Shown: piece by piece, positions 8,911 to 61,094 of the stretch
How positions within the stretch are numbered: position 1 is the first letter of the stretch
Layout: every line of letters begins with the position of its first letter
IMG/VR virus record: IMGVR_UViG_3300015373_000004
Span: 1-61,094 of that record
DNA: 61,094 nt
Source of the DNA: a virus
Strand: one strand, 5' to 3'
Notes under the pieces: generated by a model
Seen by the model: the letters and a program-made list of their open reading frames with translations, nothing else
Told to the model about the DNA's origin: nothing
Databases searched by the model: none
Program-made: the position numbers and the translations under genes

Positions 8911-8928
8911 GCCCGCGTTTCGGCGGGC
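8911..8928 (-). terminator. GC hairpin immediately downstream of a promoter element
   Basis: A 6-bp GC stem (GCCCGC/GCGGGC) is followed on the minus strand by TTTCATTTT. It resembles an intrinsic terminator, but it lies at the expected start of the transcript from promoter 8931-8957 rather than before it. It could act as a leader hairpin or attenuator, or terminate the upstream lipoprotein transcript. Confidence 0.6.
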
Positions 8929-8930
8929 CC

Positions 8931-8957
8931 TCATCTTAGAGCGTGTTTTTGTTGCGA
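8931..8957 (-). promoter_or_regulatory. Conserved promoter element, copy 1
   Basis: The minus strand reads TTCGC, spacer, AAACACG, spacer, TAAGATGAG. It matches the family consensus CTCGC-N6-9-AAACAyG-N3-4-TTAGATGAGACCA, although the final ACCA is not kept. The -10-like hexamer is TAAGAT. It lies upstream of the gene at 8206-8868. Confidence 0.65.
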
Positions 8958-8959
8958 AG

Positions 8960-9367
8960 TTACTGATCCGCGCTGGTCGAGAGATCGAAGTTCGGGATGA
9001 TCGTCTCGGGTCGGAAGATCACCCGCGAGCGGAACATGTCCGCATGCACCCCACCCATCTGCGTGACGATGATGGTCACGTTGTCCGACTTCGCCATGGT
9101 CGTGCGCTCGATGCTGCCGTCGGGCTGCTTGCAGATGATGTCGTAGGTCTCTCCGCCGGTCTCGTAGGAGCAGAAGCCCTCGGCGGAGAACATGACCCTG
9201 TCGGTGATGCCGTTGACGCCGACGATCCGTCGAGGAACCTCGAAGTTCTCTGCCGCCTTGGACAGGTTCCGGTTGGCGGTGTCAGCAGCGCTGTCGCAAC
9301 CGGCCATGAGGCCCAGGCCGAGGACGATGCAGACGATCGCGAGGATGAGCTTGATGGGGTTCTTCAT
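8960..9367 (-). CDS. Putative phage lipoprotein
   Basis: This 135-residue protein begins with a lysine, a hydrophobic stretch and a lipobox (LMAGC, Cys at residue 23), the signature of a lipoprotein processed by signal peptidase II. The mature part carries two more cysteines (FCSY, IICK) that may form a disulfide. It would be anchored on the outside of the host membrane, which suits a superinfection-exclusion or envelope-modifying role, but that is inference. The start overlaps the upstream stop (ATGA). Confidence 0.75.
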   Translation of the reverse strand: MKNPIKLILAIVCIVLGLGLMAGCDSAADTANRNLSKAAENFEVPRRIVGVNGITDRVMFSAEGFCSYETGGETYDIICKQPDGSIERTTMAKSDNVTIIVTQMGGVHADMFRSRVIFRPETIIPNFDLSTSADQ

Positions 9368-11469: not shown

Positions 11470-11494
11470 TCCGGGTCCTTTCTGAGTGGGTGAA

Positions 11495-11527
11495 TGGTCT
11501 CATCTAAGACCATGTTTTTACCGCGAG
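11495..11527 (-). promoter_or_regulatory. Conserved promoter element, copy 2
   Basis: CTCGC, spacer, AAACATG, spacer, TTAGATGAGACCA on the minus strand, a near-perfect family match, upstream of 11197-11469. Confidence 0.7.
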
Positions 11528-11528
11528 A

Positions 11529-11789
11529 TCAGCTCTGGCGCTGTCTGCGGCCGATGACCCACTGGATGGCGCCGAGCACGAGGAGCGAAGCTCCTCCGCC
11601 CATGAAGAGGCCGCCGGTGATGACCCGGTCTTGAGCGGCCATCTCCTGCGTCTTCACGATCTTGGTGTACGTCACGTTCTGCGGACGGTTCGCCCGTCGC
11701 GTCAGATCGTTGTACTCCTCGAGGTCGAGCTTGACGGTCCCGCTGCTCGTCTGGGTGACGGTCTCGGTGCTGCTGGTCTCTTTTGCCAT
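11529..11789 (-). CDS. Single-span membrane protein
   Basis: This 86-residue protein has a Thr/Ser-rich N-terminus, a charged middle (LDLEEYNDLTRRANRP) and a C-terminal transmembrane helix (GGLFMGGGASLLVLGAIQWVIG) followed by basic residues. The positive-inside rule places the C-terminus in the cytoplasm. It ends just before promoter copy 2. Function unknown. Confidence 0.65.
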   Translation of the reverse strand: MAKETSSTETVTQTSSGTVKLDLEEYNDLTRRANRPQNVTYTKIVKTQEMAAQDRVITGGLFMGGGASLLVLGAIQWVIGRRQRQS

Positions 11790-13613: not shown

Positions 13614-13793
13614 CTAGGAAGCCTGCTCGCAGGCCTTCTTGCACTCCGACACCTCTGGGGTCTCGTCTTCCTGAGCCCGATGCTTCTGCACCTTGCCGGC
13701 CACGAAGGAGACGATCGTGAGAACCGCGAAGGCAACTTCGATCGGCTCTCGAATGGCTTCTCGCTTCTCCTTGTCGAAGAGAGCCTTGAACAT
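13614..13793 (-). CDS. Small membrane protein
   Basis: This 59-residue frame (MFKALFDKEKREAIREP...) holds one hydrophobic helix (IEVAFAVLTIVSFVAG) between charged ends, plus two cysteines near the C-terminus. GAAGGTGACAGC before the ATG is a weak ribosome site. It lies directly upstream of paralogue 2 and downstream of a terminator. Confidence 0.65.
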   Translation of the reverse strand: MFKALFDKEKREAIREPIEVAFAVLTIVSFVAGKVQKHRAQEDETPEVSECKKACEQAS

Positions 13794-13820
13794 GCTGTCA
13801 CCTTCCAGTGAGATATAAAG

Positions 13821-14000: not shown

Positions 14001-14023
14001 TTGGAACTCCTTAGAATATGGTG

Positions 14024-14056
14024 TGGTCTCATCTAAGGACATGTTTTTTCTGCGAG
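14024..14056 (-). promoter_or_regulatory. Conserved promoter element, copy 3
   Basis: CTCGC, spacer, AAACATG, spacer, TTAGATGAGACCA on the minus strand, upstream of 13881-14000. Confidence 0.7.
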
Positions 14057-14096
14057 GCTAGATCTCACAAGCCTCGCAGCGACAGATCTCTTCTCT

Positions 14097-14867
14097 TCAA
14101 ACCTGCCAGAAGTTGTGCACGGGAACTACTGTGAATTCATACGCCATGCAAGCCTTCCCGTCGGGGGTCTCATGGCACGAGAACTCGATCTCGAGCGGGT
14201 GCTCGCTGTTCCATCCGATCTCATCCGAGACGCTGGTTGGCTCGAGTCCGATCTTCTCCCAGAAGTCGGACAGCGATGCCGAGTCGCTGTGGAGGATCTG
14301 GTAGTTGATGTCGTTGAGTGCACGTCGGATAGTCTCCTTGTTGCACTTGAAATATCTACCAGAGAACGCGTCGAGGAAGAGCACGTCGTTGTTGCTCTCC
14401 AGGAAGGTGACTAGCGGACGTGACTCTTGGCGCTCCTGCTCGATCTCGTCACGGATCTTCTTCTCCTCGACCTCGCCCACCCGCTCGATGACCTTGGCCT
14501 TGTACTCGTCCAGGGCTCGCTCCGAGACAGAATACGCAGCCGCCAGAGCCGCGGCCTTCTTCGTGCCGATGTAGTTCGCACCGATGATGCAGGTGACGGT
14601 CGCCGCGCCCGTCACAACCGCAGGGATGTACAGCTTCCAGACCAGCTTCGCCTTGGCCTTGGTGTCGAAGGGCTCCTTGTGCTCCTTCTTGATGTAACCC
14701 GGAGGCTTGGTCTCCTCGTCGAGGATCATCTCCGCTGCCTTGAACGTGGCCTTGACCGCCAAATATGCGGTCGTGATGGTTCCGGTGACACCGAGCGCAG
14801 TCAGGATGACTGGCGAGTTGTCGTTGAGAAGCTTCGTCGTGGAAGCGACGATCTTTTTGATGTTCAT
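14097..14867 (-). CDS. DUF6353-like membrane protein, paralogue 3
   Basis: This 256-residue protein starts at the ATG at 14867 (MNIKKIVASTTKLL...) with AAGGAA upstream. Transmembrane segments are NSPVILTALGVTGTITTAYL and LYIPAVVTGAATVTCIIGANYIG. Downstream blocks ALAAAYSVSERALDEYKAKV, NDVLFLDAFSGRYFK, NDINYQILHSDSASLSDFW and IGWNSEHPLEIEF match paralogue 2 closely. The C-terminal domain probably faces the cytoplasm. Role unknown. Confidence 0.8.
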   Translation of the reverse strand: MNIKKIVASTTKLLNDNSPVILTALGVTGTITTAYLAVKATFKAAEMILDEETKPPGYIKKEHKEPFDTKAKAKLVWKLYIPAVVTGAATVTCIIGANYIGTKKAAALAAAYSVSERALDEYKAKVIERVGEVEEKKIRDEIEQERQESRPLVTFLESNNDVLFLDAFSGRYFKCNKETIRRALNDINYQILHSDSASLSDFWEKIGLEPTSVSDEIGWNSEHPLEIEFSCHETPDGKACMAYEFTVVPVHNFWQV

Positions 14868-14900
14868 CCGAGGTTCCTTCGGTAGTTTGTCTGGCAAAGC

Positions 14901-15049: not shown

Positions 15050-15070
15050 GTGGCGTCTCCTAAAGTAGGG

Positions 15071-15103
15071 TGGTCTCATCTAACGCCGTGTTTCTCCCGC
15101 GAG
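15071..15103 (-). promoter_or_regulatory. Conserved promoter element, copy 4
   Basis: CTCGC, spacer, AAACACG, spacer, TTAGATGAGACCA on the minus strand, upstream of 14930-15049. The U-tract of terminator 15107-15130 runs into it. Confidence 0.7.
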
Positions 15104-15106
15104 AAA

Positions 15107-15274: not shown

Positions 15275-15292
15275 TGTCTTCTCCTTTGTGGG

Positions 15293-15325
15293 TGGTCTCA
15301 TCTTATGCCGAGTTTTGTCTGCGAG
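15293..15325 (-). promoter_or_regulatory. Conserved promoter element, copy 5
   Basis: CTCGC, spacer, AAACTCG, spacer, TAAGATGAGACCA on the minus strand. The -10-like hexamer here is TAAGAT. Upstream of 15137-15274. Confidence 0.7.
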
Positions 15326-15389
15326 TTCCTCCCGGGGAATTTTTGGGTTTCGAAGTGAAAAAATGCAGTCCGTGTAGGTCAAACGAGAA

Positions 15390-15733: not shown

Positions 15734-15756
15734 ATAGTCTCTCCTTAGTTAGAGTG

Positions 15757-15788
15757 TGTCTCACTATACGGCGTGTTTACGCCGCGAC
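15757..15788 (-). promoter_or_regulatory. Conserved promoter element, copy 6
   Basis: GTCGC, spacer, AAACACG, spacer, TATAGTGAGACA on the minus strand. TATAGT is close to a classical -10, supporting the -10 assignment for the whole family. Upstream of 15437-15733. Confidence 0.75.
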
Positions 15789-15789
15789 T

Positions 15790-16251
15790 CTAGACAGGAG
15801 AGACAGGTGGCAGATTCCCCGGCTCGGCGTACTGATTCGAGGGATCCTGATGCTCGCCGCCCGCCTCGGAGTTGGTGTTCAGCGTCTTCACCTCGAGCGT
15901 GACACGGTCCTTCTTCGTCAGGACGTTCGGGTGATCCGCGAACTCCAGCTGAAGCATGCCGGCGTTCTCGTCTTGCTGATGGATCGTCATGACCCCGTCG
16001 ACGCCCGCATTGACTGCGGACAACGCATTAGACGCCCTGTACTGGGCAGTGCTGATCCCGAGGATCACGCCCAGGAAGGTGTCGACGGCCAGAACCGTGC
16101 CAACGACCTGGTCCGCGAATGGCAGGCCCCAAACTCCGGCAACCGCGAAGTAGAGCGTGCCAAGCGCCGGTAGGAGAACCTGCGCTACGAACTTCAGGAA
16201 GTCATACGTCTTCCCGCTGAGCCAGGGGCTCGGTGCCTGTGTTTCGGCCAT
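15790..16251 (-). CDS. Holin (r1t-like)
   Basis: This 153-residue protein has two transmembrane helices near the N-terminus: YDFLKFVAQVLLPALGTLYFAV and QVVGTVLAVDTFLGVILGI, joined by a short GVWGLPFAD turn. This matches the r1t-type holin pattern common in actinobacteriophages. It would form membrane lesions that release endolysin. The C-terminal 70 residues are soluble and acidic, longer than in many members. It overlaps the next membrane-protein gene by 50 bases. Confidence 0.85.
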   Translation of the reverse strand: MAETQAPSPWLSGKTYDFLKFVAQVLLPALGTLYFAVAGVWGLPFADQVVGTVLAVDTFLGVILGISTAQYRASNALSAVNAGVDGVMTIHQQDENAGMLQLEFADHPNVLTKKDRVTLEVKTLNTNSEAGGEHQDPSNQYAEPGNLPPVSPV

Positions 16252-31620: not shown

Positions 31621-32409
31621 CTAGTCGGTCGGGACGGGCTGGCCGGCCTTGATGAACTCGGCAATGAGCTTTCCATAGGCCTCGGGATCCTTGTGGATCT
31701 CGCTGATCTTGCCTGGGCCTACTGTTTCGATGACCTTGGTCTGCAAATCACCAACGTGACTCTTTGCCTGAAGTCCGGATTCGAGGATGTCCTTGGTGAC
31801 GTTCGCACGCTGCCCATTGGGCAGAGTGACGTCGTAGGTTCCGTCCTTGTTGTGCGCGTTGATCTGGATGCCCTTCGAACCAAAGCTCGAGTCGTAGGTC
31901 TTCGTGGGACCGACAGCGAGCGCCTCTCGACGAATCTCGTTCGCCCTTCGGGTAATCGCCTCGAGCTTGGGTACGGTGTTCTTCTGGTAGTCGACGGTCG
32001 CGTGAGTCGCGAGGAGAACACCGCTGCCAAGCGTGGCGGTTACCGCTGCGCGACCGACCTGGCGTCGGCGGAGTTCAGCGTTCTTGGCGATTGCGGCAGT
32101 TCCGATTCGAACGGCACTTCCTGCGGCAGCACCTGCGACGGGTCCAGCTAGCGCTGTGACTGAAAGAGCTGTCGCGGTCGACAGTACGGACGCAGCAACG
32201 ATCTTTCCGACTTCCTTGCGTCGAGCCATTGCGGCTTGTGCTTCCTGAGAGGTCATCTTCGGCCTTGAAGCCGGCTTCTTGGACTTCTTGGACGAGGAGC
32301 TTCGTCCAGATCCAGACGAGGTGGACGTCTTTCGAACACCCCAGTGCATGCCCTTCACGCCATGATGGACGAGTTCAAACTCGGCATCAGGGCTGATGAT
32401 GTACGTCAT
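31621..32409 (-). CDS. HYGVKG-tagged virion-associated protein A
   Basis: This 262-residue protein begins with an N-terminal motif FELVHHGVKGMHWGVRK, then a Ser/Lys-rich linker. Hydrophobic segments follow (IVAASVLSTATALSVTALAGPVAGAAAG; AAVTATLGSGVLLAT). The hydrophilic C-terminal domain includes DGTYDVTLPNGQRANVTKD. The HxGVKGMxWGVR motif recurs in phage structural proteins, often as an N-terminal tag, and may direct packaging into the virion. The hydrophobic part could be a membrane-active ejection protein. It is coupled to the terminase (ATGA overlap). Confidence 0.7.
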   Translation of the reverse strand: MTYIISPDAEFELVHHGVKGMHWGVRKTSTSSGSGRSSSSKKSKKPASRPKMTSQEAQAAMARRKEVGKIVAASVLSTATALSVTALAGPVAGAAAGSAVRIGTAAIAKNAELRRRQVGRAAVTATLGSGVLLATHATVDYQKNTVPKLEAITRRANEIRREALAVGPTKTYDSSFGSKGIQINAHNKDGTYDVTLPNGQRANVTKDILESGLQAKSHVGDLQTKVIETVGPGKISEIHKDPEAYGKLIAEFIKAGQPVPTD

Positions 32410-34153: not shown

Positions 34154-34801
34154 CTAAGGCTTGACCCTGGCGACCCCGTTGAGGACCGTCGGTGTGAAGA
34201 CCACCTTGTTCTTGTTGACCTTGAACGCCGACGTCTTTACGCCGGCGGTTTTGGCCGCCATGTTTCCTACCTGCTGAGCGGCCTTAGCAGCTTTCGCAGC
34301 TTCCTTGGGATCCATGAGGTCCAGGCCCATCTTCTTAGCGAGCCTTTCCTCCATCATCTTCTTGACGATCTTCTTCCCAGAGTTGGCAGCCTGCTGCTGA
34401 GCGGCTTCGACACCAGCATTGAGAAGTGAGTCAACGATCTTTCGACCCGTCGAGCGACGAGCTAGGGCGGCTTCTCTTGTGGTCTGACGGAACTTCTTCT
34501 CGTCCTCGAACCGCTTGTTGACCATGCGGATCTCCTCGTTGGACAAGGAGGAAAAGCCCTGCTTCTTCGCCTTCGCGATGATGGCCGTTACCCGCTCGTG
34601 GTCTGTCGAAGTGTTCTTGTCGCCATCCAGGCCACCGGGGCTGTGCACAGACCGGGTCTTCGCGGTGTCGCTCGGGTGGTCGGATCCTTCGACTCGTCCA
34701 CTGGGGCCAGGATTTCGTCGGACGCCCCAGTGCATTCCCTTGATACCGTAGTGCTCGAGGAAATCTTCGCCGTCCTCCAGGAGGAGTTCGTCGATGTCCA
34801 T
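34154..34801 (-). CDS. HYGVKG-tagged virion-associated protein B
   Basis: This 215-residue protein carries an acidic N-terminus and then DFLEHYGIKGMHWGVRRNPG, the same tag as protein A. A polar linker follows, then a long charged helical domain (EEIRMVNKRFEDEKKFRQTTREAALARR) and an Ala/Lys-rich C-terminus. It may be an internal head protein or ejected factor; that is inference from the tag and position. A GTCAAAATGG repeat covers its start codon. Confidence 0.7.
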   Translation of the reverse strand: MDIDELLLEDGEDFLEHYGIKGMHWGVRRNPGPSGRVEGSDHPSDTAKTRSVHSPGGLDGDKNTSTDHERVTAIIAKAKKQGFSSLSNEEIRMVNKRFEDEKKFRQTTREAALARRSTGRKIVDSLLNAGVEAAQQQAANSGKKIVKKMMEERLAKKMGLDLMDPKEAAKAAKAAQQVGNMAAKTAGVKTSAFKVNKNKVVFTPTVLNGVARVKP

Positions 34802-34816: not shown

Positions 34817-35032
34817 CTAGATCAGAGGGGGCTCAGGAGCGAGCGGAGGCAGCGAGGCCTTGACTGCCTGGACAGCCTTGGAAGCCTCGACGTTTCCAAC
34901 TCGCTCGATGACGCGGTTGGTTAGCCAGTTCTTGTAGTTCGCCACTTTCTCGGCGTTGGTTGCCCCTGGAAAGGAGGCGACAACGCGGTCGAATTGGTCC
35001 TGTGGCAGCGTGAGAGTTGGCAGGTCAGGCAT
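34817..35032 (-). CDS. Hypothetical protein
   Basis: This 71-residue protein (MPDLPTLTLPQDQFDRVVASFPG...) contains KNWLTNRVIERVGN and a Pro-rich C-terminus. Similar short proteins accompany structural genes of actinobacteriophages. It overlaps the peptidase gene by 8 bases. Function unknown. Confidence 0.65.
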   Translation of the reverse strand: MPDLPTLTLPQDQFDRVVASFPGATNAEKVANYKNWLTNRVIERVGNVEASKAVQAVKASLPPLAPEPPLI

Positions 35033-35903
35033 CGTTTACTCCCAAAAGCTTCTCGAGTGCAGCCACAAGAGCCTTCGCGGCAGCGATGGTCTCCTGAATG
35101 ACTTCGAGATCGGGTCGGACGGGCGGATTGTCCGGCGTGGGAGTCGGCTCCGGAGTCGGAGCCGGCTGAGTGACCGGAACGAATTGCGTGATGTCGCCTC
35201 CTCGATCGAGGAGAGTCTTGAAGTCGCCCCACGTCAAGTACCCACGTCCATCGACTCCCCAGTTCTCGCCCCAGGAGTTGTGGAACCAGACGCGCTGGTT
35301 CTCCACGTCCAGCTCGTCGAAGACGATCTCATGACCGCCCTGGATGGTGCCGGTGATGTGTACTCGACCGTCGGGATCAGGTCGGAACATGTCGGAGCGC
35401 CACTCGATACCGCCGATGACGGCCGACTGGGACAGTGCCGTCAGAGCAGCCTCGAAGGACGTCGCGTGCACGTAGCCACTGATCAGCGCGCGGTTCTGAA
35501 GCGTCTTGGCTACCGATAGACCGTCCGAACCGGTGTCGTTCGGAGGGTAGAAACCCTGGTATGGGTCGATCTTGGTCGCGTCGGAGTAGACGTTGACGGC
35601 ATAGGTCTCGTCGACCAGAGCGTCCGTGGCGTTCAGAACGTGCTGGCCATCCTCCCAGAAAACGCCAGTACCTAGAGCACCAGTGGCCGCATTGCCCGTG
35701 CACGAACCGAGGTTGCCCTGGTCGAGCGTGGGGATGTGCCGCTCGTGGCGGATGGACTTGAGCTGGGCCGGATCCTTGGCTTTGACTTGGTAGGCCAGCG
35801 AGCGACTGTCGTGTCGAACGTGACGACCGAGTCGAGGATCGGTTGGGTGATACAGCTTTCGGCTGATGGTGTAGCCGGAATGCTGCTCGATGAAGTCGTA
35901 CAA
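35025..35903 (-). CDS. Papain-like (C1) cysteine peptidase
   Basis: I choose the TTG at 35903 because GAGGAGG lies just upstream and the longer frame overlaps the neighbouring gene, giving 292 residues. The catalytic layout is complete: Gln62 in DQGNLGSCTGNA with Cys68, His191 in GGHEIVF, Asn209 in HNSWGENWG. A proline-rich linker (TPEPTPTPDNPP) leads to a C-terminal helix. It could process virion or host envelope proteins. A papain-family enzyme inside a head operon is unusual. Confidence 0.85.
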   Translation of the reverse strand: MYDFIEQHSGYTISRKLYHPTDPRLGRHVRHDSRSLAYQVKAKDPAQLKSIRHERHIPTLDQGNLGSCTGNAATGALGTGVFWEDGQHVLNATDALVDETYAVNVYSDATKIDPYQGFYPPNDTGSDGLSVAKTLQNRALISGYVHATSFEAALTALSQSAVIGGIEWRSDMFRPDPDGRVHITGTIQGGHEIVFDELDVENQRVWFHNSWGENWGVDGRGYLTWGDFKTLLDRGGDITQFVPVTQPAPTPEPTPTPDNPPVRPDLEVIQETIAAAKALVAALEKLLGVNDA

Positions 35904-35913
35904 AGAATCCTCC

Positions 35914-36315
35914 TCAGAAGAGTGTCGGGTCGGAATACGGGTCCACGACAACCACTGGGTCGGGGTCGACCCAATCGGTCTCCTCTCGGCTGACGTTCAG
36001 TCGCCACGAAGCCTCTTGGATCTGCTCCTTCATCGCATCGATCACGAATGATGTGGGAGGCGGGTCGTAGAGGAGCTTGACGCGGAAAGCCATGAAGGTA
36101 TGCGCGTCGTTCATCTTTTTGATCTTGTCGCCCAGGAAGTCTTCCCAGGTCGCCGAGTTGTCGGCGATCATGAAGCCTTCTGCAGGTCCAACGCCAATCT
36201 GGCGGAGCGTCGAGAGCTGCGCATTGATGAGGAGCACGAGCTCCGGGTCGAAGGCCGTCTCTTCGACGGGAACTCCGAGAGCCTGCTTGACAGAATCTAG
36301 GATACTGTCTGCCAT
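35914..36315 (-). CDS. Head-tail connector (adaptor)
   Basis: The start at 36315 (MADSILDSVKQALGV) gives 133 residues. The pattern LGVPVEETAFDPELVLLINAQLSTLRQIGVGP...SATWEDFLGD...AFRVKLLYDPPPTSFVIDAMKEQI matches phage head-tail adaptors of the HK97 gp6 type. It would bind the portal. Its position upstream of the terminase, away from the other connectors, is unusual. Confidence 0.8.
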   Translation of the reverse strand: MADSILDSVKQALGVPVEETAFDPELVLLINAQLSTLRQIGVGPAEGFMIADNSATWEDFLGDKIKKMNDAHTFMAFRVKLLYDPPPTSFVIDAMKEQIQEASWRLNVSREETDWVDPDPVVVVDPYSDPTLF

Positions 36316-42320: not shown

Positions 42321-42581
42321 TCATACTTTCGTCGCTCGATCGTTCTTTCTCGGCTCTGATGCTCTTCGATAGATCCCTGTTGGATGTTCCTCGAGGATCT
42401 CGTCGATTGCAGCTTCGATTGCCGCTTCTTGATCGGCTTCGGACTGTTCATCTGACGTCACAGCGATGCGAGCGAGATAGCCAGGCGTGTCGTATCCCGC
42501 TGCACGATCCCATTCGAACCATTGAACCCATTGAGTAAATGGATCGAATGGATTGTCCGCCGTGGTGAGGCGCGATGCCAT
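42321..42581 (-). CDS. Conserved small phage protein
   Basis: The start at 42581 (MASRLTTADNPFDPFTQW) gives 86 residues. The pattern NPFDPFTQWVQWFEWDRAAGYDTPGYLARIAVTSDEQSEADQEAAIEAAIDEI is a familiar short actinobacteriophage protein encoded near structural genes. It is acidic and helical. Function unknown. Confidence 0.75.
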   Translation of the reverse strand: MASRLTTADNPFDPFTQWVQWFEWDRAAGYDTPGYLARIAVTSDEQSEADQEAAIEAAIDEILEEHPTGIYRRASEPRKNDRATKV

Positions 42582-42615
42582 GTGTCTCACTCCTTTCTTT
42601 GCATCGTTGTGTGTT

Positions 42616-45396
42616 CTAGCCAGCCATCCCACGTCTCAGTGTGGACAGGGAGACGCCCAGTTCCTCGGCGATCTCTGCCTGTGTGTAGCCAGCATTGGCC
42701 AGTGCCCTTGCTCTGCTCACCTTGGTTGGTGCCATGATCACTGCACTCTTCGGTGTAGCCAATTGCTTGACTACCTCGATGTCTGCATTGTCCAGGATGG
42801 ACTTCAGCTTGGTGTGCGTGATGGCACCAGCCTGGATTGCATTCCACTCTTCTTGCGTGAGTGGTGAGTCAGGCGATCCGATCTGCTTCTTGTCTGCACC
42901 AGTCCTGGCTCTAGCCTTCTTCAGCTCCTGTGATGAGAGCTTCTTGATCTGGTCACTATCCAGGTTGGGGTTCTCTGCACGGCGTAGCTTGATCTGTGCA
43001 TTGGCAATGACCTGAGCCTGACGTTCAAGAGGAGCGTTCTTCAGTGCCGTGTTGAGCTTGGCATTGAGGGAGGCTACCTCTTTGGCATAGGTCTGCTTGG
43101 CACTGGGGCTATAAGGAAGGGGCTTGGTGTTGTTAACCAATTCCATCCTTGCCTGATTGGCCAAGTCCCTGACCTGGTTCGAGTAGTTGGCGTACAGAAT
43201 CTCGACCGGGGTCTTCTTTGCACCGACCAGCTTATGTGCATCGTCGAGAGGACGGACCTGTCCATCCACAACCTCTACAGCACCACGTTGCATCTTCCTT
43301 GTCTTCGGAACCTTGACATAGGTGACTTCTCCTGTGTCCTTGTTCGTGACCTTCTTGGAGGCCAGCTTGTTCGTCGGAACGAAGATGAGACGACCCGTCT
43401 TAGGATCGATAGGACCGCCATCACTCATGGGCCTTGGCTTGAAGTCGGGGACCTCACGATCTCCAGTACTTCTAGACAGCAGTGTTGCTGCTCCACCTTG
43501 AGGATGCTCAGGTGTCACCTGATACTTCTTCTTGAGGGCAGAGATCCCATTGTCGAGTGCAGACTGACGGTAGTTCAGACCGTGCTTCTCAGCATCGATG
43601 ACAACCATGGAGTGGCGTACTGCCTGTGCCAGTTCCTGATGCGTGGCACCAGCGATTGTCATGTCAGTGATGAGGTTAGAGATCTTCCCCATCTCGGTCT
43701 GAGTGTTGCTCATCTTCTTCATTCCTGGATAGCCAGGATAGAAGCGCTGAGGATCGAAACCCTTCAGCCCAGGAAGAGGCGGTTCAGTACTGATGCGTTT
43801 GTGGTTGTTGGGAATCACCACGACCGTGTCGCCGTCGAAGTCGGCACCAGAGAGGCGTGCAGCCACTCTGTGGTTGATGCCTACTGCAGCGGTGACATTG
43901 CCCAGCATCTTCCTTGCCTGAGCGTTCCTGTTGTTGACAGTGAGCTCAGGGATCTCGAACTTACCACCGTGAGGATAGCGAATCAGTACGACCGATTCTC
44001 CATCACGATAGTTGGGTGCGTAGATCTCGTGTTCCTTCAGAGAGTTGATCGGAAGAATCACGTGGGTCTTCTGCCTCGGCATGGCAGCAGCCTTGAGGTG
44101 CACGGCTGAAGAATCCATGTCGTCGGCATAGGACTGAAGAAGCTTGGCCCTGACGGTCGGGTTGTTCAGAGCCAGGATCTCGTCAAGCTGCGCCTTCTTC
44201 TTGGCGTAGGTGACATCGAGCTGACCCTTGATGAGCTCAGGTCGCTGCTTTGACAACATCTGAGAAGCCAGGTTACGAGACCAGTCATCCCAGGTTGCTT
44301 CCTCGTTGACGAGGTTGACAGCAGACTTAAGCTTTCCCTTGAGCGGTCCAGAGTCGTGAGTGATCTGACGATTGATGCTTGATCCGAACGGATTCGACGG
44401 ATCGTCCTTCTGGATCGGCTTGAGAACGGTGTTGTCCTTAGGACCGAGCATTGGCGTGCCCTTGGACTTGTTCGTGTTGAACTGGATGTCGACACCTGGA
44501 GGAAGATCGTCCTTGAGAACGGCCATGCCCTTCAGGTAGTGAGAGCCATCGACCAGGATTCGAGCCTGAGCGTAGTGCGTACCGCCCATGTCGAGATCCT
44601 TTGCGCCAGGACGGATGTACATGACACCGTCGGCCTGGTCTCCACCATCCTCTTTATATTTGATCTGGACTCGCTTTGAGCTGATCGAAAGAGGGGGCTG
44701 AGGCTCGGTCCACTTACGACCGCCGTCTTCACTCCAAGCCTGGAGAGGAACGATCTTGTCTCGGTTCTGCATGACGTCCTTCCACTCAGTTCCAGGAGGA
44801 GCCAGAACCTTCGTGGTGGTGTCGTGCTGAGTTCCAACCTGAGGCACGGCAACCTTGTGTACCGTGTAACCCTCTGCTTCGAGGACCGCGACGGCGGTGT
44901 CGAACTTGGTTCGAGCCATGCCGATCTGGTTCTCCACACCCTTGCCGATGTCGATGAAGCCGTCCTTGTCGACTCGACCACGAAGCATGTCAGACGTGGC
45001 GGTAAGTACATCCGCCTTGTCACGAGCACCGGGAGCGAGAAGAGCACGAACTGTGGATTCCTTCGACTTACTGCCGTACATCTTCTCGGCAATAGCGCTG
45101 TTGGACAGTCCCTTAGCCTTCAAACGCTCGGCCTGAGAGATGTCAGCAGCCTTCTTGGCGTTGCCGGCGATCGAGATCGTCGCGCGAAGGTGCGTGGTGT
45201 TGAACGGGTGCTCCTCGGTGGAGAACGACTTTGCAATCTCGGCGTCAGAGAGCCCCTTCTTGCGAAGATCGTCAATGATTCCGAGGAAAGTCGTTCCACG
45301 CTCTTCTGGAGTCTGGCCAGACCCCCAGGGATAGCGTCCCGACTTGCGCTTCACACCATAGTGGTACAGCTCGTGATCTTCCTCGTCGATTAGCAA
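42616..45396 (-). CDS. Two-barrel RNA polymerase-like protein with DFDGD motif and HYGVK-type tag
   Basis: The 926-residue protein carries GINHRVAARLSGADFDGDTVVVIPNN with DFDGD at 519-523, the metal-binding signature of the RNA polymerase beta-prime and YonO/QDE-1-like families. Just upstream, VVLIRYPHGGKFEIPELTVNN parallels the segment preceding NADFDGD in beta-prime. The N-terminus (ELYHYGVKRKSGRYPWGSG) resembles the tag of two head-operon proteins. Helix-turn-helix-like blocks lie near 46-60, 96-118 and at the C-terminus (GYTQAEIAEELGVSLSTLRRGM). It may be a virion-delivered or late RNA polymerase. The lysines of the partner barrel cannot be assigned by eye. Confidence 0.75.
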   Translation of the reverse strand: MLIDEEDHELYHYGVKRKSGRYPWGSGQTPEERGTTFLGIIDDLRKKGLSDAEIAKSFSTEEHPFNTTHLRATISIAGNAKKAADISQAERLKAKGLSNSAIAEKMYGSKSKESTVRALLAPGARDKADVLTATSDMLRGRVDKDGFIDIGKGVENQIGMARTKFDTAVAVLEAEGYTVHKVAVPQVGTQHDTTTKVLAPPGTEWKDVMQNRDKIVPLQAWSEDGGRKWTEPQPPLSISSKRVQIKYKEDGGDQADGVMYIRPGAKDLDMGGTHYAQARILVDGSHYLKGMAVLKDDLPPGVDIQFNTNKSKGTPMLGPKDNTVLKPIQKDDPSNPFGSSINRQITHDSGPLKGKLKSAVNLVNEEATWDDWSRNLASQMLSKQRPELIKGQLDVTYAKKKAQLDEILALNNPTVRAKLLQSYADDMDSSAVHLKAAAMPRQKTHVILPINSLKEHEIYAPNYRDGESVVLIRYPHGGKFEIPELTVNNRNAQARKMLGNVTAAVGINHRVAARLSGADFDGDTVVVIPNNHKRISTEPPLPGLKGFDPQRFYPGYPGMKKMSNTQTEMGKISNLITDMTIAGATHQELAQAVRHSMVVIDAEKHGLNYRQSALDNGISALKKKYQVTPEHPQGGAATLLSRSTGDREVPDFKPRPMSDGGPIDPKTGRLIFVPTNKLASKKVTNKDTGEVTYVKVPKTRKMQRGAVEVVDGQVRPLDDAHKLVGAKKTPVEILYANYSNQVRDLANQARMELVNNTKPLPYSPSAKQTYAKEVASLNAKLNTALKNAPLERQAQVIANAQIKLRRAENPNLDSDQIKKLSSQELKKARARTGADKKQIGSPDSPLTQEEWNAIQAGAITHTKLKSILDNADIEVVKQLATPKSAVIMAPTKVSRARALANAGYTQAEIAEELGVSLSTLRRGMAG

Positions 45397-45431: not shown

Positions 45432-46013
45432 TCAAAGGCCGGCGGCCTCAAGACGCATCGCGTTGATGCGCTTGTCGAAGATCTTGATCTTCTCCATGAT
45501 GTGAGTGATGACATCAGGGTCGCCCATCTGGACGTGTGCCTCGTCACTCTGGTAGATCCGCCACTCCATGTCGATCTCGAACGGCTTGATCCGGTACTCG
45601 AGGCAGAAGAAGGCCCCGTAGACGTCGAGCTGGCTGAAGGACGCGGGGTTGATACCCGTCTTCAGGTCATGAACCCGGAGCTTCATCCGACCTCGCTCCT
45701 GACGGAACGAAATCGCATCCGCAGTGCCGTAGGCATTGTCCGAGTAAAACAGGATCTGCTCGGGGGTCATCCGGAAGCCGATAGCGTCGTTGACGTACCG
45801 GTTCAAGGTCTGCTCGCTTCGAGGGAGCTTGACTCCCTCTCGGATCAGATCGGCCGCAAGCTTGTGAAGCCTCGTCCCCTTTTCGGCCGCAAGGGATGTC
45901 GAGAAGACAGCATCGAGCTTGTCTTCGTCGTAGTTGAGCCACGCATACTTGCTAGCGGATAGGAACGCGTGAGATCCGGCATTCGCTAGAGCGTAGTGTT
46001 TGTTGAAGTGCAT
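45432..46013 (-). CDS. RecB/Cas4-like PD-(D/E)XK nuclease
   Basis: The start at 46013 (MHFNKHYALANAGSH...) gives 193 residues. Motifs in order: FLSASKYAWLN, GTRLHKLAADLI (His50), YGTADAISF (Asp99), LRVHDLKTG (Asp116, Lys118) and QLDVYGAFFCLEY. These are the core of RecB-family exonucleases. It would process phage DNA ends in replication or recombination. No Cas4-type iron-sulfur cysteine set is visible. The gene overlaps the VRR-NUC gene by 62 bases. Confidence 0.85.
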   Translation of the reverse strand: MHFNKHYALANAGSHAFLSASKYAWLNYDEDKLDAVFSTSLAAEKGTRLHKLAADLIREGVKLPRSEQTLNRYVNDAIGFRMTPEQILFYSDNAYGTADAISFRQERGRMKLRVHDLKTGINPASFSQLDVYGAFFCLEYRIKPFEIDMEWRIYQSDEAHVQMGDPDVITHIMEKIKIFDKRINAMRLEAAGL

Positions 46014-46281
46014 CCAAGACTTCCTGTTCGTTTTCAGGGTAGATGAAGGCAGAGAACGACCAGCCGTTGAATTTCTCAACGTAGTATGGCTGGTTTGGTC
46101 TCGGTGGTTCGTCTGCCGACTTCTTCACCTCGAGAATGGCCCATCGGTCGTAGTAGAGGACCAGAAGGTCGGGAATACCTTGACGGTAGTTCGCGTCGAG
46201 CTTCTGAATCACGCATCCGGGCAGGCGCTTCTGGATTTCGGAGATGACGTGCGGCTGGTAATCGCGCTCGCGCTTGCCCAT
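45952..46281 (-). CDS. VRR-NUC domain nuclease
   Basis: The start at 46281 (MGKRERDYQPHVISEIQKRL) has AAGGAGG upstream, giving 109 residues. The core IQKLDANYRQGIPDLLVLYYDRWAILEVKKS contains Asp38, Glu51 and Lys53 of the VRR-NUC active site. These enzymes cut branched DNA and often accompany phage helicases. Promoter-like 46311-46345 lies upstream. Confidence 0.85.
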   Translation of the reverse strand: MGKRERDYQPHVISEIQKRLPGCVIQKLDANYRQGIPDLLVLYYDRWAILEVKKSADEPPRPNQPYYVEKFNGWSFSAFIYPENEQEVLDALQQTLRSSECRISRVPIR

Positions 46282-46310
46282 GATCCTCCTTAGGTCAAAA
46301 ACATAAGGCT

Positions 46311-46345
46311 TGGTCTCATCCCTTTCATTATAATCCGCGTTTTTC
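46311..46345 (-). promoter_or_regulatory. TATAAT promoter with GATGAGACCA element
   Basis: The minus strand reads AAAACGCGGATTATAATG, then GGGATGAGACCA. A perfect TATAAT is combined with the GATGAGACCA and AAACrCGG blocks of the conserved element, but with longer spacing. It drives the VRR-NUC gene. Confidence 0.65.
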
Positions 46346-46373
46346 ATTCTACTAAATAAGTACTTACCCGTAT

Positions 46374-52295: not shown

Positions 52296-52318
52296 GGGAT
52301 TTCTCCTTTGATGGGTTG

Positions 52319-52351
52319 TGGTCTCATTTAAGGGCATGTTTCGCATGCGAG
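52319..52351 (-). promoter_or_regulatory. Conserved promoter element, copy 7
   Basis: CTCGC, spacer, AAACATG, spacer, TTAAATGAGACCA on the minus strand, upstream of 52119-52295. Confidence 0.7.
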
Positions 52352-52436
52352 GAGAAAAAAGAAAAGGGTGTGTGAGAGGCAGGACTAATGTGCGTCCACG
52401 CGAATACCGCCCTTCGGCAGGGTTGGGTACTCTCTC
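52352..52436 (-). ncRNA. Possible small RNA between two promoter elements
   Basis: Promoter 52437-52466 is followed by about 85 bases with no start codon or plausible ORF, then by CCTTTTCTTTTTTCT and the next promoter. A GCC/GGC hairpin (CTGCCGAAGGGCGG) is present. An RNA-only cassette is the simplest reading. Confidence 0.4.
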
Positions 52437-52466
52437 CTCTCATCTAAGGCTGTGTTTTTCGTGCGA
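52437..52466 (-). promoter_or_regulatory. Conserved promoter element, copy 8
   Basis: TTCGC, spacer, AAACACAG, TTAGATGAGAG on the minus strand. No ORF follows it. Confidence 0.65.
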
Positions 52467-52469
52467 AAA

Positions 52470-52491
52470 CCTAAACCCGTGTGGGTCTAGG
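52470..52491 (-). terminator. CCTAAACCC-type hairpin terminator
   Basis: CCTAAACCC/GGGTCTAGG stem (one mismatch) with ACAC loop on the minus strand, then TTTTC. Terminates 52500-52742. Confidence 0.75.
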
Positions 52492-52742: not shown

Positions 52743-52768
52743 TTCAATCTCCTTGAAAATGGGGGTTG

Positions 52769-52801
52769 TGGTCTCATCTAACCCCCTGTTTTGCGTGCGA
52801 A
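52769..52801 (-). promoter_or_regulatory. Conserved promoter element, copy 9
   Basis: TTCGC, spacer, AAACAGG, TTAGATGAGACCA on the minus strand, upstream of 52500-52742. Confidence 0.7.
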
Positions 52802-52803
52802 AA

Positions 52804-52825
52804 CCTAAACCCGTGTGGGTTTAGG
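52804..52825 (-). terminator. CCTAAACCC-type hairpin terminator
   Basis: Perfect CCTAAACCC/GGGTTTAGG stem, ACAC loop, TTTTC tract running into promoter copy 9. Confidence 0.85.
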
Positions 52826-53035: not shown

Positions 53036-53053
53036 ATGGGTCTCCTTGGGTAG

Positions 53054-53086
53054 TGGTCTCATTTCAACCCATGTTTCACCTGCGAC
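53054..53086 (-). promoter_or_regulatory. Conserved promoter element, copy 10
   Basis: GTCGC, spacer, AAACATG, TGAAATGAGACCA on the minus strand, upstream of 52835-53035. Confidence 0.7.
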
Positions 53087-53091
53087 AAAGA

Positions 53092-53350: not shown

Positions 53351-53376
53351 TTTGGGCTTCTTTCGGATAGGGGAGT

Positions 53377-53409
53377 TGGTCTCATTTAAAGACGTGTTCC
53401 CCGTGCGAG
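53377..53409 (-). promoter_or_regulatory. Conserved promoter element, copy 11
   Basis: CTCGC, spacer, GAACACG, TTAAATGAGACCA on the minus strand, upstream of 53120-53350. Confidence 0.65.
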
Positions 53410-53416
53410 ACAAAAA

Positions 53417-53676: not shown

Positions 53677-53699
53677 GGGTATGCCTTTCAGTTGATGGG

Positions 53700-53732
53700 T
53701 AGTCTCATCTAACCCCGTGTTTCGCGTGCGAC
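53700..53732 (-). promoter_or_regulatory. Conserved promoter element, copy 12
   Basis: GTCGC, spacer, AAACACG, TTAGATGAGACTA on the minus strand, upstream of 53449-53676. Confidence 0.7.
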
Positions 53733-53741
53733 AAAAGGAAA

Positions 53742-54024: not shown

Positions 54025-54042
54025 TTCGGTCCTTTCGGTTGA

Positions 54043-54076
54043 GGTCTCTCATCTAAGCGCATGTACCGTCCGCGAA
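54043..54076 (-). promoter_or_regulatory. Conserved promoter element, copy 13
   Basis: TTCGC, spacer, TACATG, TTAGATGAGAGACC on the minus strand, with a two-base insertion (GAGAGACC). Upstream of 53761-54024. Confidence 0.6.
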
Positions 54077-54079
54077 GAA

Positions 54080-54405: not shown

Positions 54406-54423
54406 GAGTTGTCCTTTCGGGTT

Positions 54424-54457
54424 GTGGTCTCATTTCAACCCGTGTTCTGCTCGCGAG
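54424..54457 (-). promoter_or_regulatory. Conserved promoter element, copy 14
   Basis: CTCGC, spacer, GAACACG, TGAAATGAGACCA on the minus strand, upstream of 54109-54405. Confidence 0.65.
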
Positions 54458-54463
54458 ACAAAA

Positions 54464-54638: not shown

Positions 54639-54659
54639 GGTTGGGGGCCTTTCAGATGA

Positions 54660-54692
54660 TGGTCTCATCTAACCCCGTGTTCTACCTGCGAG
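54660..54692 (-). promoter_or_regulatory. Conserved promoter element, copy 15
   Basis: CTCGC, spacer, GAACACG, TTAGATGAGACCA on the minus strand. It overlaps the stop of 54682-54951 and drives 54498-54638. Confidence 0.65.
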
Positions 54693-54951
54693 TACCTCGA
54701 TCGAGGAACTCCTTGAACATCGCCTGCCGGTCAGTGGCGACGATGAACTCCGACGCCATCCGGACCGCCTCGCTCGCGACCCTCAGCTGCTTCCGCAGCT
54801 CCGCGTTCCGCTTCTTCAGGTTGTGGTTCTTCACCAGCAACACTGTGGTGACGGCGACGACGACCGGGTGGTCCTTGACCCACTTCGTGACCTGGTCCTC
54901 CAGGGTCTCGCGCTTGGGGTACGGGTACTCGGTGTTACGCTCGGTGGTCAT
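54682..54951 (-). CDS. Membrane-anchored coiled-coil protein
   Basis: This 89-residue protein has a polar N-terminus, a hydrophobic helix (HPVVVAVTTVLLV, about 30-42) and a charged C-terminal helix (KNHNLKKRNAELRKQLRVASEAVRMA). No conserved promoter element lies directly upstream, so it may be cotranscribed with 54981-55400. Function unknown. Confidence 0.65.
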   Translation of the reverse strand: MTTERNTEYPYPKRETLEDQVTKWVKDHPVVVAVTTVLLVKNHNLKKRNAELRKQLRVASEAVRMASEFIVATDRQAMFKEFLDRGTRR

Positions 54952-55615: not shown

Positions 55616-55631
55616 TTTTCTCCTTAGATTG

Positions 55632-55664
55632 TGGTCTCATCTAAGGCGGTGTTTTCCATGCGAG
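55632..55664 (-). promoter_or_regulatory. Conserved promoter element, copy 16
   Basis: CTCGC, spacer, AAACACCG, TTAGATGAGACCA on the minus strand, upstream of 55463-55615. Confidence 0.7.
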
Positions 55665-55668
55665 AGAA

Positions 55669-55856: not shown

Positions 55857-55875
55857 GTCTTTCCTTTCGGGTTGT

Positions 55876-55908
55876 TGGTCTCATCTCAACCCGTGTTTAC
55901 GCCGCGAG
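55876..55908 (-). promoter_or_regulatory. Conserved promoter element, copy 17
   Basis: CTCGC, spacer, AAACACG, TGAGATGAGACCA on the minus strand, upstream of 55698-55856. Confidence 0.7.
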
Positions 55909-55912
55909 AGAA

Positions 55913-56220: not shown

Positions 56221-56242
56221 TGCTTTACCTTTCGGTAGAATA

Positions 56243-56275
56243 TGGTCTCATCTCAGACCGTGTTTCTACTGCGAG
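56243..56275 (-). promoter_or_regulatory. Conserved promoter element, copy 18
   Basis: CTCGC, spacer, AAACACG, TGAGATGAGACCA on the minus strand. It overlaps the end of 56266-56661 and drives 55945-56220. Confidence 0.7.
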
Positions 56276-56661
56276 CCCGTGCCTCCGGAATATCCGTTCT
56301 CGTGGACGAACTGGATGATCTCAGCGTTCAGGTTGCGCGTCCCATCCATGTTGGTGATCGTCGAGACGAAACGATCCAGCGTCTTCTGCTCTGCGTCCTT
56401 GACCTTCATCCGAGCGTTGATCCGCACGAACGGCCACTTCGGAGGATTCGTACCGTAGGAAGCCAGCACATCCTTGATCCAGTCCAGTACGAACTGTCGG
56501 CACTCAGGACCACCTGGATCATCCAGCTCGGGTGCGAAGACCCCAAGCAGGCGAATATCCTCGTAGTGGTAGTGGCGCTCCCCCTCGTCCACGTAGACGT
56601 CATAGAGTGTGTCCCCGTCGTGAACTCGGTCGACGGGAATCTGAATTCTCTGGTCCCACAT
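56266..56661 (-). CDS. Staphylococcal-nuclease-fold protein
   Basis: This 131-residue protein shows the SNase pattern PVDRVHDGDTLYDVYVDEG (Asp15, Asp17), YEDIRLLGVFAPELDDPGGPECRQFVLDWI (Arg37, then LLGVFAPE). The order of Asp, Arg and Glu residues suggests a calcium-dependent nuclease, possibly degrading host DNA or RNA. One of the few enzymes in the cassette region. Confidence 0.8.
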   Translation of the reverse strand: MWDQRIQIPVDRVHDGDTLYDVYVDEGERHYHYEDIRLLGVFAPELDDPGGPECRQFVLDWIKDVLASYGTNPPKWPFVRINARMKVKDAEQKTLDRFVSTITNMDGTRNLNAEIIQFVHENGYSGGTGSQ

Positions 56662-56724: not shown

Positions 56725-57171
56725 CTACTTGACGGTGCTGATGGTGTGCGGGGTCTCGCGCTTGCGCATCCAGCGCTTGAGCGAACGCTCCTCGTACCAG
56801 TCCATCGCCTTGGCCACGCCGAACGATCCAGCGGTCACCGCGCCGGCCAGCACCGCGAAGACGATGGTCGTCTGGGTGGTGGAGGCGACGCGGGTCGCGA
56901 GGGTCGTGTCGTTGGGGTTGTAGGCGGCGGCCTGGAGCTCGAGGAAGTCCTCTCGGGGCAGGATGACGCTGTTGCTGAGGTTGTCCGACATTGCGGGCTC
57001 CTTAGGTAGGTTGTGTCTCATCTCAGCCCATGTTTCCGCCGCGAGACCCCCGTGAGTCTTACGGCAGTCGTACCCCTCTCCGCCTACATCCAGCGGGACG
57101 AACCAAACGTTGAGTCCGTCCAGCCAGATGCAGACGGTTCCATCGGCGTGATGGTAGGCGTCGTGGGTCAC
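56725..57171 (-). CDS. Two-part ORF: soluble module in frame with membrane module
   Basis: The frame is open from GTG 57171 (overlapping the upstream stop) to 56725, 148 residues. Residues 1-50 (VTHDAYHHADGTVCIWLDGLNVWFVPLDVGGEGYDC) look like an independent small protein. From Met61 (ATG at 56991, with AAGGAG upstream) an 88-residue membrane protein begins, with a helix TIVFAVLAGAVTAGSFGVAKAM. Promoter 57013-57045 lies inside the joined frame, so short and long products may both exist. Confidence 0.6.
   Translation of the reverse strand: MTHDAYHHADGTVCIWLDGLNVWFVPLDVGGEGYDCRKTHGGLAAETWAEMRHNLPKEPAMSDNLSNSVILPREDFLELQAAAYNPNDTTLATRVASTTQTTIVFAVLAGAVTAGSFGVAKAMDWYEERSLKRWMRKRETPHTISTVK
57013..57045 (-). 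promoter_or_regulatory. Conserved promoter element, copy 19 (inside an ORF)
   Basis: CTCGC, spacer, AAACATG, TGAGATGAGACA on the minus strand, 20-50 bases before the internal ATG at 56991. Confidence 0.65.
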
Positions 57172-58298: not shown

Positions 58299-58328
58299 GT
58301 TCCAGCCTTCCTATAGTTGTTGCCGAGC

Positions 58329-58404
58329 GTGCACGACGGGATTCGAACCCGCACCTCCGTCTATCCCACTGGGTAGGTCGCTCTAACCATTAAGCTACGT
58401 GCAC
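58329..58404 (-). tRNA. tRNA-like gene with aberrant anticodon arm
   Basis: The 76-base minus-strand sequence has a perfect 7-bp acceptor stem (GTGCACG/CGTGCAC), a canonical D arm (GCTT...GAGC with GGTTA) and a canonical T arm (GCGGG, TTCGAAT, CCCGT). The 27 bases between D and T arms do not form a 5-bp stem with a 7-base loop. The best pairing is CTACCC with GGGATAG, leaving almost no loop. I cannot assign an anticodon. No CCA is encoded. Confidence 0.7.
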
Positions 58405-58618: not shown

Positions 58619-58745
58619 TCGGCACTTAAAGGGAGGTTTTCGCGCCGTCGCGTCGATTACCCTGTGCCTATCCCACCCCCGCCCCTGGTAGATTCCAGGA
58701 ATTATTACCGTTTGACCGGCGGGGCGCTCTGAGCCTAAGGGCTGT
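58619..58745. other. Non-coding spacer
   Basis: No gene is seen. A CCTGG/CCAGG hairpin (58684-58699) and TAATAAT on the minus strand (near 58703) are the only features; the latter could be a -10 box. Confidence 0.4.
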
Positions 58746-59057
58746 TTACCGTCGCTCAGACGACGGGACCCTAAGCGGGCCCTTCAGCTCGAAGTGCTCT
58801 TCGAACCATGCCTTGTCCAAGGCAATATAGGTGTTCGCCTCTGGGGAAACGATGTAGTCCCCGAGGTGTGCGCTCATGCCATCGCCCTTGAGCTCACTAA
58901 GGGCCATGGTTCCGCCGCGAATCCGGTGGGCCACGGCGGTCCAGCCGGTGATGGCTGAAAGCTGCTTGATGTTGTGCTTCGTCAGCTCTGCCGCTGCTGC
59001 GACCTGAGTACGGCGGTGCCTGCTCGACCCGCGGTACTCCTGGAAGAGCTCGCTCAC
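58746..59057 (-). CDS. Hypothetical protein with GD(Y/W)-type C-terminus
   Basis: This 103-residue protein has a helical N-terminus and a C-terminal beta module HLGDYIVSPEANTYIALDKAWFEEHFEL. The same arrangement appears in 59057-59404 and 59745-60026. The start overlaps the upstream stop by one base. Function unknown. Confidence 0.7.
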   Translation of the reverse strand: MSELFQEYRGSSRHRRTQVAAAAELTKHNIKQLSAITGWTAVAHRIRGGTMALSELKGDGMSAHLGDYIVSPEANTYIALDKAWFEEHFELKGPLRVPSSERR

Positions 59058-60724: not shown

Positions 60725-60747
60725 GATTGTTGTCCTTAGATAGTGGA

Positions 60748-60780
60748 TGGTCTCATCTAAGGATGTGTTTTTTCCGCGAC
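60748..60780 (-). promoter_or_regulatory. Conserved promoter element, copy 20
   Basis: GTCGC, spacer, AAACACAT, TTAGATGAGACCA on the minus strand. It overlaps the last codons of 60757-60978 and drives 60614-60724. Confidence 0.7.
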
Positions 60781-60978
60781 CTCCGGGTGGAAGTCACGAA
60801 TATGAAACTCCTCTGCGTACTTCCGTTGGCTGGGGTCCTTGGACGTGGCCGTGAACCGGTGCGGGGGCTTGCAGTGCGGACACTTCCACGTGGTCACATA
60901 CCACTCGAGCTTCTGGCCGGCGTACAGACCCAAAGCTCCGATCAAAGCCACGAAAATATCGTGGATCAAGAGCTCCAT
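60757..60978 (-). CDS. Small membrane-anchored zinc-motif protein
   Basis: This complete 73-residue copy of the gene cut off at 1-214 starts MELLIHDIFVALIGALGLYAG, a hydrophobic helix, and continues with WKCPHCKPPHRF and a charged C-terminus. The ATG overlaps the stop of the DUF6275-like gene. Its stop lies inside promoter copy 20. Confidence 0.75.
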   Translation of the reverse strand: MELLIHDIFVALIGALGLYAGQKLEWYVTTWKCPHCKPPHRFTATSKDPSQRKYAEEFHIRDFHPEVAEKTHP

Positions 60979-61094
60979 CAGTCGAGGTGGAACTCGACGT
61001 TGTGGGTCTTGCGGTAGGTGTCCACGAAGCCCTTCTCCTTCTCGCGGCTGTAGGTCACCTCGTAGTAGCGACCGTCGGCCACCGACGTGGAGCA
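60765..61094. repeat. Right copy of imperfect terminal redundancy
   Basis: Homologous to 1-333; see the left copy. The final 97 bases or so are identical to 237-333. Confidence 0.85.
60978..61094 (-). CDS. DUF6275-like protein, 5' end cut by window
   Basis: This is the C-terminal part of a second copy of the gene at 214-522, ending HNVEFHLD. Only the last 38 codons are inside the window. Over the shared part it is identical except at the C-terminus. Confidence 0.75.
   Translation of the reverse strand, partial: CSTSVADGRYYEVTYSREKEKGFVDTYRKTHNVEFHLD

Follow-up and report, generated by a model that had tools for sequence, protein, structure and literature searches.

A single-chain two-barrel RNA polymerase of a siphovirus lineage, with a candidate cognate promoter and a conserved N-terminal tag

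The Thermus phages P23-45 and P74-26 encode both virion and non-virion single-chain RNA polymerases (RNAPs): gp96 is a virion RNAP fused to the tape measure protein (TMP), gp64/gp62 is a non-virion RNAP, and the logic of motif-polymerase co-occurrence applied to them is the one used here (PMC10770324). In the crAss-like phage phi14:2, the two-barrel RNAP gp66 is delivered by the virion (cited in PMC10770324). YonO, from the Bacillus prophage SPbeta, is a single-chain phage RNAP of ~100 kDa with an aspartate triad and a role in late-gene expression, whose promoter sequence was left undetermined (PMC5467207). The DNA considered here, a 61,094-nt viral stretch (IMG/VR record IMGVR_UViG_3300015373_000004) referred to as the window, encodes a 926-aa protein that is, with near certainty on the strength of its modelled fold, another two-barrel RNA polymerase (Table 1).

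Table 1. Features of the polymerase locus, the tag-bearing genes and the promoter elements in the window.
Feature	Coordinates	Strand	Remarks
Single-chain two-barrel RNA polymerase gene	42616..45396	-	926 aa, TTG start, PHROG 4291
N-terminal tag HYGVKRKSGRYPWGSG, residues 12-27	45316..45363	-	predicted disordered, near-invariant
N-terminal helical region, residues ~30-119, two helix-turn-helix-like repeats	45040..45309	-	sequence, DSSP, homologue HTH hits, weak profile match
Putative first double-psi barrel, residues ~240-365, K289-G290 and K310	44302..44679	-	boundaries inferred
Second double-psi barrel, residues ~443-530, with catalytic loop	43807..44070	-	conservation and model
Catalytic DFDGD	43828..43842	-	residues 519-523
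C-terminal helix-turn-helix, residues 890-925	42622..42729	-	profile
Small conserved gene after RNAP, last before cos in relatives	42321..42632	-	phrog_4303
Cas4/RecB-like exonuclease, RNAP operon	45432..46079	-	phrog_3953
Endonuclease gene (VRR-Nuc in annotated relatives), likely first in RNAP operon	45952..46281	-	start inferred at 46281
RNAP-operon promoter TAGAATGAAAAACGCGGATTATAATGAAAGG	46321..46351	-	21.8 bits; 955 nt upstream of RNAP start
Tag-bearing gene, EHYGIKGMHWGVRR, immediately upstream of terminase	34154..34801	-	sequence
Tag-bearing gene, VHHGVKGMHWGVRK, between terminase and portal	31621..32409	-	sequence
Promoter element	60744..60783	-	matrix
Promoter element	57009..57048	-	matrix
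Promoter element	56239..56278	-	matrix
Promoter element, terminator hairpin before	55872..55911	-	matrix
Promoter element, terminator hairpin before	55628..55667	-	matrix
Promoter element	54656..54695	-	matrix
Promoter element, terminator hairpin before	54421..54460	-	matrix
Promoter element, terminator hairpin before	54040..54079	-	matrix
Promoter element, terminator hairpin before	53696..53735	-	matrix
Promoter element, terminator hairpin before	53373..53412	-	matrix
Promoter element, terminator hairpin before	53050..53089	-	matrix
Promoter element, terminator hairpin before	52765..52804	-	matrix
Promoter element of small RNA gene, no ORF after	52431..52470	-	matrix
Predicted small structured RNA	52355..52441	-	5' end GAGAGG pairs with CCTCTC before T-run
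Promoter element	52315..52354	-	matrix
Promoter element, weaker	15752..15791	-	matrix
Promoter element	15289..15328	-	matrix
Promoter element, terminator hairpin before	15067..15106	-	matrix
Promoter element	14020..14059	-	matrix
Promoter element	11491..11530	-	matrix
Promoter element, weaker	8922..8961	-	matrix

The reading frame is intact, with no stop within it. Searches of PDB sequences with the protein or its profile found no polymerase, so homology rests on fold. An AlphaFold2 model built on an alignment of 96 homologues (whole-protein pLDDT 81.5) matched QDE-1 first when compared with the PDB by Foldseek (E 3.5e-10), next RDR2, and then Pol II and beta-prime chains. The core model (residues 232-640, pLDDT 86.1) matched QDE-1 (E 3.3e-11, TM 0.54) and the Thermus-phage RNAPs P74-26 gp62 (1.8e-8) and gp64 (6.3e-7), with further matches to RDR2, AR9 RNAP and bacterial beta-prime. 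Two double-psi barrels are thereby found in one fold, with boundaries taken from DSSP and not from superposition, and DFDGD falls within the second of them rather than in an unrelated fold. The Pfam RdRP family is matched weakly by 17 of 19 homologues. The T7-type RNAP domain PF00940 has no match in the window, but the control genomes were equally silent, so this result says little. The protein probably synthesizes RNA and would do so on a DNA template.

The preliminary description, made from the letters of the window, had already proposed a two-barrel polymerase, and the matches to QDE-1, RDR2, gp64/gp62 and beta-prime bear this out. It placed the metal-binding loop at residues 515-528; the sequence SGADFDGDTVVVIP, which contains GADFDGD, is indeed present but lies one position further on, at 516-529. 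GADFDGD is 100% conserved among the 96 homologues (~50-76% identity) and is therefore not a chance string. The RYP...FEIPELTVNN-type segment said to precede the loop corresponds to IRYPHGGKFEIPELTVNN, 30-40 residues ahead of it, and the C-terminal helix-turn-helix was likewise recovered, slightly below Pfam cut-offs (HTH_38 1.1e-5). K289-G290 and R473 are invariant in the same alignment and K310 is conserved at 95%; K289 and K310, 21 residues apart, are candidate catalytic lysines of the first barrel, recognized from sequence alone. With YonO, hhalign gave no sequence relation beyond a 19-residue chance match; the two remain comparable as single-chain phage RNAPs with an aspartate triad, YonO having a late role.

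A close parallel is with P23-45/P74-26, likewise siphoviruses with a single-chain two-barrel RNAP, and the fold match extends to gp62/gp64. However, unlike gp96, the window protein is a free 926-aa chain without TMP fusion, and it differs from the Thermus-phage RNAPs in its own tag, helix-turn-helix regions at both ends, a different promoter, and actinobacterial and Firmicute hosts. phi14:2 gp66 belongs to a podovirus lineage, is a larger protein and is absent from the listed PDB fold matches. QDE-1 and RDR2, eukaryotic RNA-silencing polymerases (Pfam RdRP), provide the best fold match across both barrels; neither is known to have a DNA promoter.

The profile of PHROG 4291 matches the protein over its full length (1213 bits, residues 4-924). 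Homologues with 38-53% identity occur in 250 phage records, the family being spread over ~240 phages of actinobacteria, Lactococcus and Faecalibacterium, and relatives are encoded in 507 IMG/VR stretches. Lactococcus phage 1706 orf75, ReqiPoco6 gp106 and the FP_oengus 'putative RNA polymerase' are full-length homologues, that is, the family itself. Record labels vary between helix-turn-helix protein, hypothetical protein, RNA-dependent RNA polymerase (RefSeq), putative RNA polymerase (FP_oengus) and structural protein (ReqiPoco6, 1706), the first and third being commonest. A relative lacking the RNAP was sought via the capsid-protease fusion and the DNA polymerase; by genus counts, both occur with it. 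Record counts for the three proteins are near-equal by host genus (95 Arthrobacter, 55 Gordonia, 54 Streptomyces, 13 Lactococcus, 7 Curtobacterium, 4 Rhodococcus, 4 Microbacterium, and Faecalibacterium), and these matching counts mark the RNAP, as judged from gene content, as a core gene of one siphovirus lineage spanning two bacterial phyla. Since the homologues are core genes of ~240 phages, some already labelled RNA polymerases, the protein is not unprecedented. The preliminary description had regarded a packaged single-chain polymerase in an actinobacterial siphovirus as new; the packaging part of that view gains indirect support from the tag and the 1706 label discussed below. The polymerase itself is of a known kind; its pairing with a promoter, its tag and the layout of the start site are what would set it apart as a variant. 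The main text of PMC10770324 makes no mention of PHROG 4291-bearing phages. In the openly searchable literature, neither a polymerase-promoter pairing nor any biochemistry was found for this family; an earlier description in subscription papers is possible.

The candidate promoter is a repeated element, placed ahead of presumed early genes, that reads TCGCA....aAAACAcg...TTAGATGAGACCA in the window, with TTAGAT where relatives mostly have TATAAT. A 40-bp matrix recovered 20 sites from the window, every one of them on the gene strand, and 0 from shuffles, which excludes chance for these cassette promoters. At 18 sites, a start codon with a Shine-Dalgarno sequence follows 52-62 nt from the matrix start, leaving a leader of roughly 25 nt, and a terminator hairpin precedes about half of the sites. 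They are confined to the non-structural half (8.9-15.8 and 52-61 kb), and the matrix scan found no site in the structural operon. The start region GAGACCACAAC resembles the T7 phi10 leader, a likeness attributed to chance or convergence. Three paralogues of phrog_2152, with no assigned function, are encoded at 6904-7803, 12779-13801 and 14097-14897 (-).

The element recurs with fixed spacing, TCGCA-N5-WACA-N4-YTATAAT followed by GAGACC or AGAAGG, in six relatives, whose hosts range from Streptomyces to Lactococcus. Spacing is identical in Streptomyces RosaAsantewaa, Gordonia Duffington, Arthrobacter Mudcat, Rhodococcus ReqiPoco6 and Lactococcus 1706, and the Faecalibacterium phage FP_oengus has about 10 copies of a variant, ACGCGAAAAATACAG...CTTTATG, several of which score low and were recognized by eye. 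In an exact-pattern scan of IMG/VR, 32 of the 34 long contigs among the matches listed also have a strong RNAP match, the remaining two being records of 35 and 39 kb; the reversed pattern gave 0 matches, and thus no control contigs in which to gauge how often RNAP occurs. Across 84,980 prokaryote genomes, the pattern was present in only 3 contigs of 3-4 kb, two phage-like and one with a transposase. An independent test used 95 loci picked by the RNAP protein alone: 71 sites were found, 70 of them on the RNAP strand (a 70:1 bias), while 20 column-permuted matrices gave 0-4 sites. The promoter string returned nothing relevant in paper searches. These comparisons (the 20 window sites, the listed contigs, the strand bias and the near-absence from prokaryotes) lend strong support to a polymerase-promoter link that the preliminary description had offered as inference, and the element is very probably the cognate promoter of the RNAP, which would recognize it directly. 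However, both are found in one lineage, so their co-occurrence may partly reflect shared descent.

The polymerase operon also appears, from its upstream sequence, to be under its own promoter type. In the protein-picked loci, most near-polymerase sites precede the VRR-Nuc gene and are 880-960 nt ahead of the RNAP start; from this position a site was predicted in the window and then found at 46351 (-). Such an arrangement fits the arrival of the first enzyme molecules with the virion. Between the operon promoter and the first gene, L029, L031, L036, L055, L061 and other loci share a leader element (AATCAAGCC..TTTT-like), some 850-900 nt ahead of RNAP; in the window it is at ~46281-46326 (-). 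Some relatives have a hairpin and T-run at this place, possibly an attenuator.

The N-terminal tag, HYGxxRxSGRYPWGSG, is the best-conserved stretch compared (0.91 vs 0.69 overall). It is conserved though predicted to be disordered (pLDDT ~33), as expected for a recognition peptide. In the sequence scanned, similar HYG..WG peptides otherwise occur in genes that flank the terminase: the two window genes of Table 1, RosaAsantewaa gene 6 and 1706 orf7. The scan took in part of the Gordonia, Arthrobacter and Rhodococcus phage genomes, short of their terminase regions, and gave one chance match in a reverse-strand ORF. The resemblance of the N-terminus to tags of two head-operon proteins, noticed at the outset, is thus real, with EHYGIKGMHWGVRR and VHHGVKGMHWGVRK on either side of the terminase gene. 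The records of both 1706 orf7 and orf75, the latter the RNAP homologue, carry the annotation 'structural protein', a label repeated for ReqiPoco6 by similarity only. The virion proteins of 1706 were reportedly examined by mass spectrometry in the 2008 study of Garneau et al. Paper searches with the tag peptide found nothing relevant. The tag and the 1706 annotation make packaging of the RNAP in the virion plausible and, on balance, likely. A peptidase-like protein, phrog_16701, is encoded at 35025-35951 (-), close to the head genes.

Some promoter sites precede small structured RNAs in place of ORFs, and these give an indication of the start site. Of 468 cases, 31 have the 7 nt that follow TATAAT complementary to the stretch ahead of the downstream T-run, whereas permuting the 5' ends gives 4.5 +/- 1.9; by start offset, the excess begins at -1/0, is not clear at -6 and is nearly gone at +7. 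Transcription would thus start directly after TATAAT, at about its -1/+1, which puts the box at about -6 to -1, unlike the -12 to -7 of the sigma-70 -10 box, from which transcription starts about 7 nt downstream. A sigma-70-like -35 (TTGACA-like hexamer 16-18 nt upstream) is not conserved in the aligned sites. Genes for small structured RNAs, of which there are dozens of distinct ones, lie downstream of such promoters, including that of the window (Table 1) and those of L114, L173, L178, L190, L205 and L110 (ReqiPoco6) near 15034. One recurring type combines GTAAGACACGAANG and TTTTCGNTGG elements within a GAGAAG..CTTCTC stem. On the loci checked, the small RNAs match no Rfam family, two tRNAs excepted. 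In ReqiPoco6 (L110, 14604-14710), a promoter element lies directly upstream of a tRNA gene and the precursor ends pair, so that this tRNA would be a product of the phage enzyme.

The explanation that best accommodates these observations, and which as a whole chain (packaged RNAP, own promoter, start at a purine) is probably correct, is that the RNAP is a single-chain two-barrel DNA-dependent RNA polymerase, a core gene product of the siphovirus lineage, which the HYG...GRYPWGSG peptide would most likely load into the head. Ejected with the DNA, it would need no host sigma factor to begin early transcription. The ~31-bp promoter would have TCGCA at about -25, WACA at about -15 and TATAAT at -6 to -1 (TTAGAT, TATAGT or TTTATG in other phages), with the start at a purine just downstream. 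The products of the enzyme would be small early mRNAs, small structured RNAs, its own operon and, in relatives, tRNAs. The enzyme may, however, first be made by the host RNAP and act only later. The chances are about even that this extends to several hundred cultured and uncultured siphoviruses, each with a packaged, tag-loaded, sigma-independent RNAP, a ~31-bp promoter shared from Lactococcus to Streptomyces phages, and a regulon of early mRNAs, the polymerase operon and dozens of unclassified structured small RNAs, host sigma being dispensable at the start of infection.

It is unlikely that the RNAP, though genuine and active at these promoters, stays out of the particle and is instead made after infection, from host-RNAP transcripts, to drive middle genes. 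Such a scheme would resemble that of YonO, a phage RNAP that transcribes late genes in a prophage (PMC5467207); the RNAP gene sits among replication and recombination genes, outside the head operon, and the relative FP_oengus has an integrase gene. Against this, no part of the protein is better conserved than the tag, which terminase-linked genes share, the 1706 homologue is labelled structural, and the RNAP operon bears the same promoter, so that the first molecules need a source.

While TATAAT is the sigma-70 -10 consensus in most relatives, it is very improbable that the element serves host RNAP, either as a sigma-70 promoter or by binding a phage activator, and that the polymerase acts elsewhere: the -35 is not conserved, TTAGAT in the window and CTTTATG in FP_oengus occupy the same place, and the RNA stems put the start at -1/+1 of TATAAT and not 7 nt later. 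In addition, the element is nearly missing from prokaryote genomes and is common to low- and high-GC hosts of two phyla. A true RNA-dependent RNA polymerase, amplifying for example the structured small RNAs, is scarcely credible; the closest solved fold is QDE-1, with structures on RNA and DNA templates, and RefSeq uses that name, but the remaining close fold matches are the phage RNAPs gp62/gp64 and a DNA promoter travels with the polymerase.

About 240 sequenced phages, many in teaching collections (Arthrobacter, Gordonia, Streptomyces), carry the gene, which is labelled 'helix-turn-helix protein' or the like. If the preferred reading of a packaged RNAP with its own promoter is true, each of these phages has an RNA polymerase of its own that works from a defined promoter. 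They would then supply high-GC actinobacteria with a compact pair of polymerase and promoter, make single-chain two-barrel RNAPs accessible in a cultured system, and add a candidate promoter for the class in which that of YonO stayed undetermined, as well as a candidate head-loading signal.

The window also contains a pistol ribozyme at 58706-58765 (-) (Rfam RF02679, 39.2 bits, above the gathering score), with a tRNA-Trp gene close by at 58327-58404. The record ends, 1-333 and 60765-61094, are 96-97% identical over ~330 bp, which suggests a circular map with imperfect assembly overlap, or a terminal repeat.
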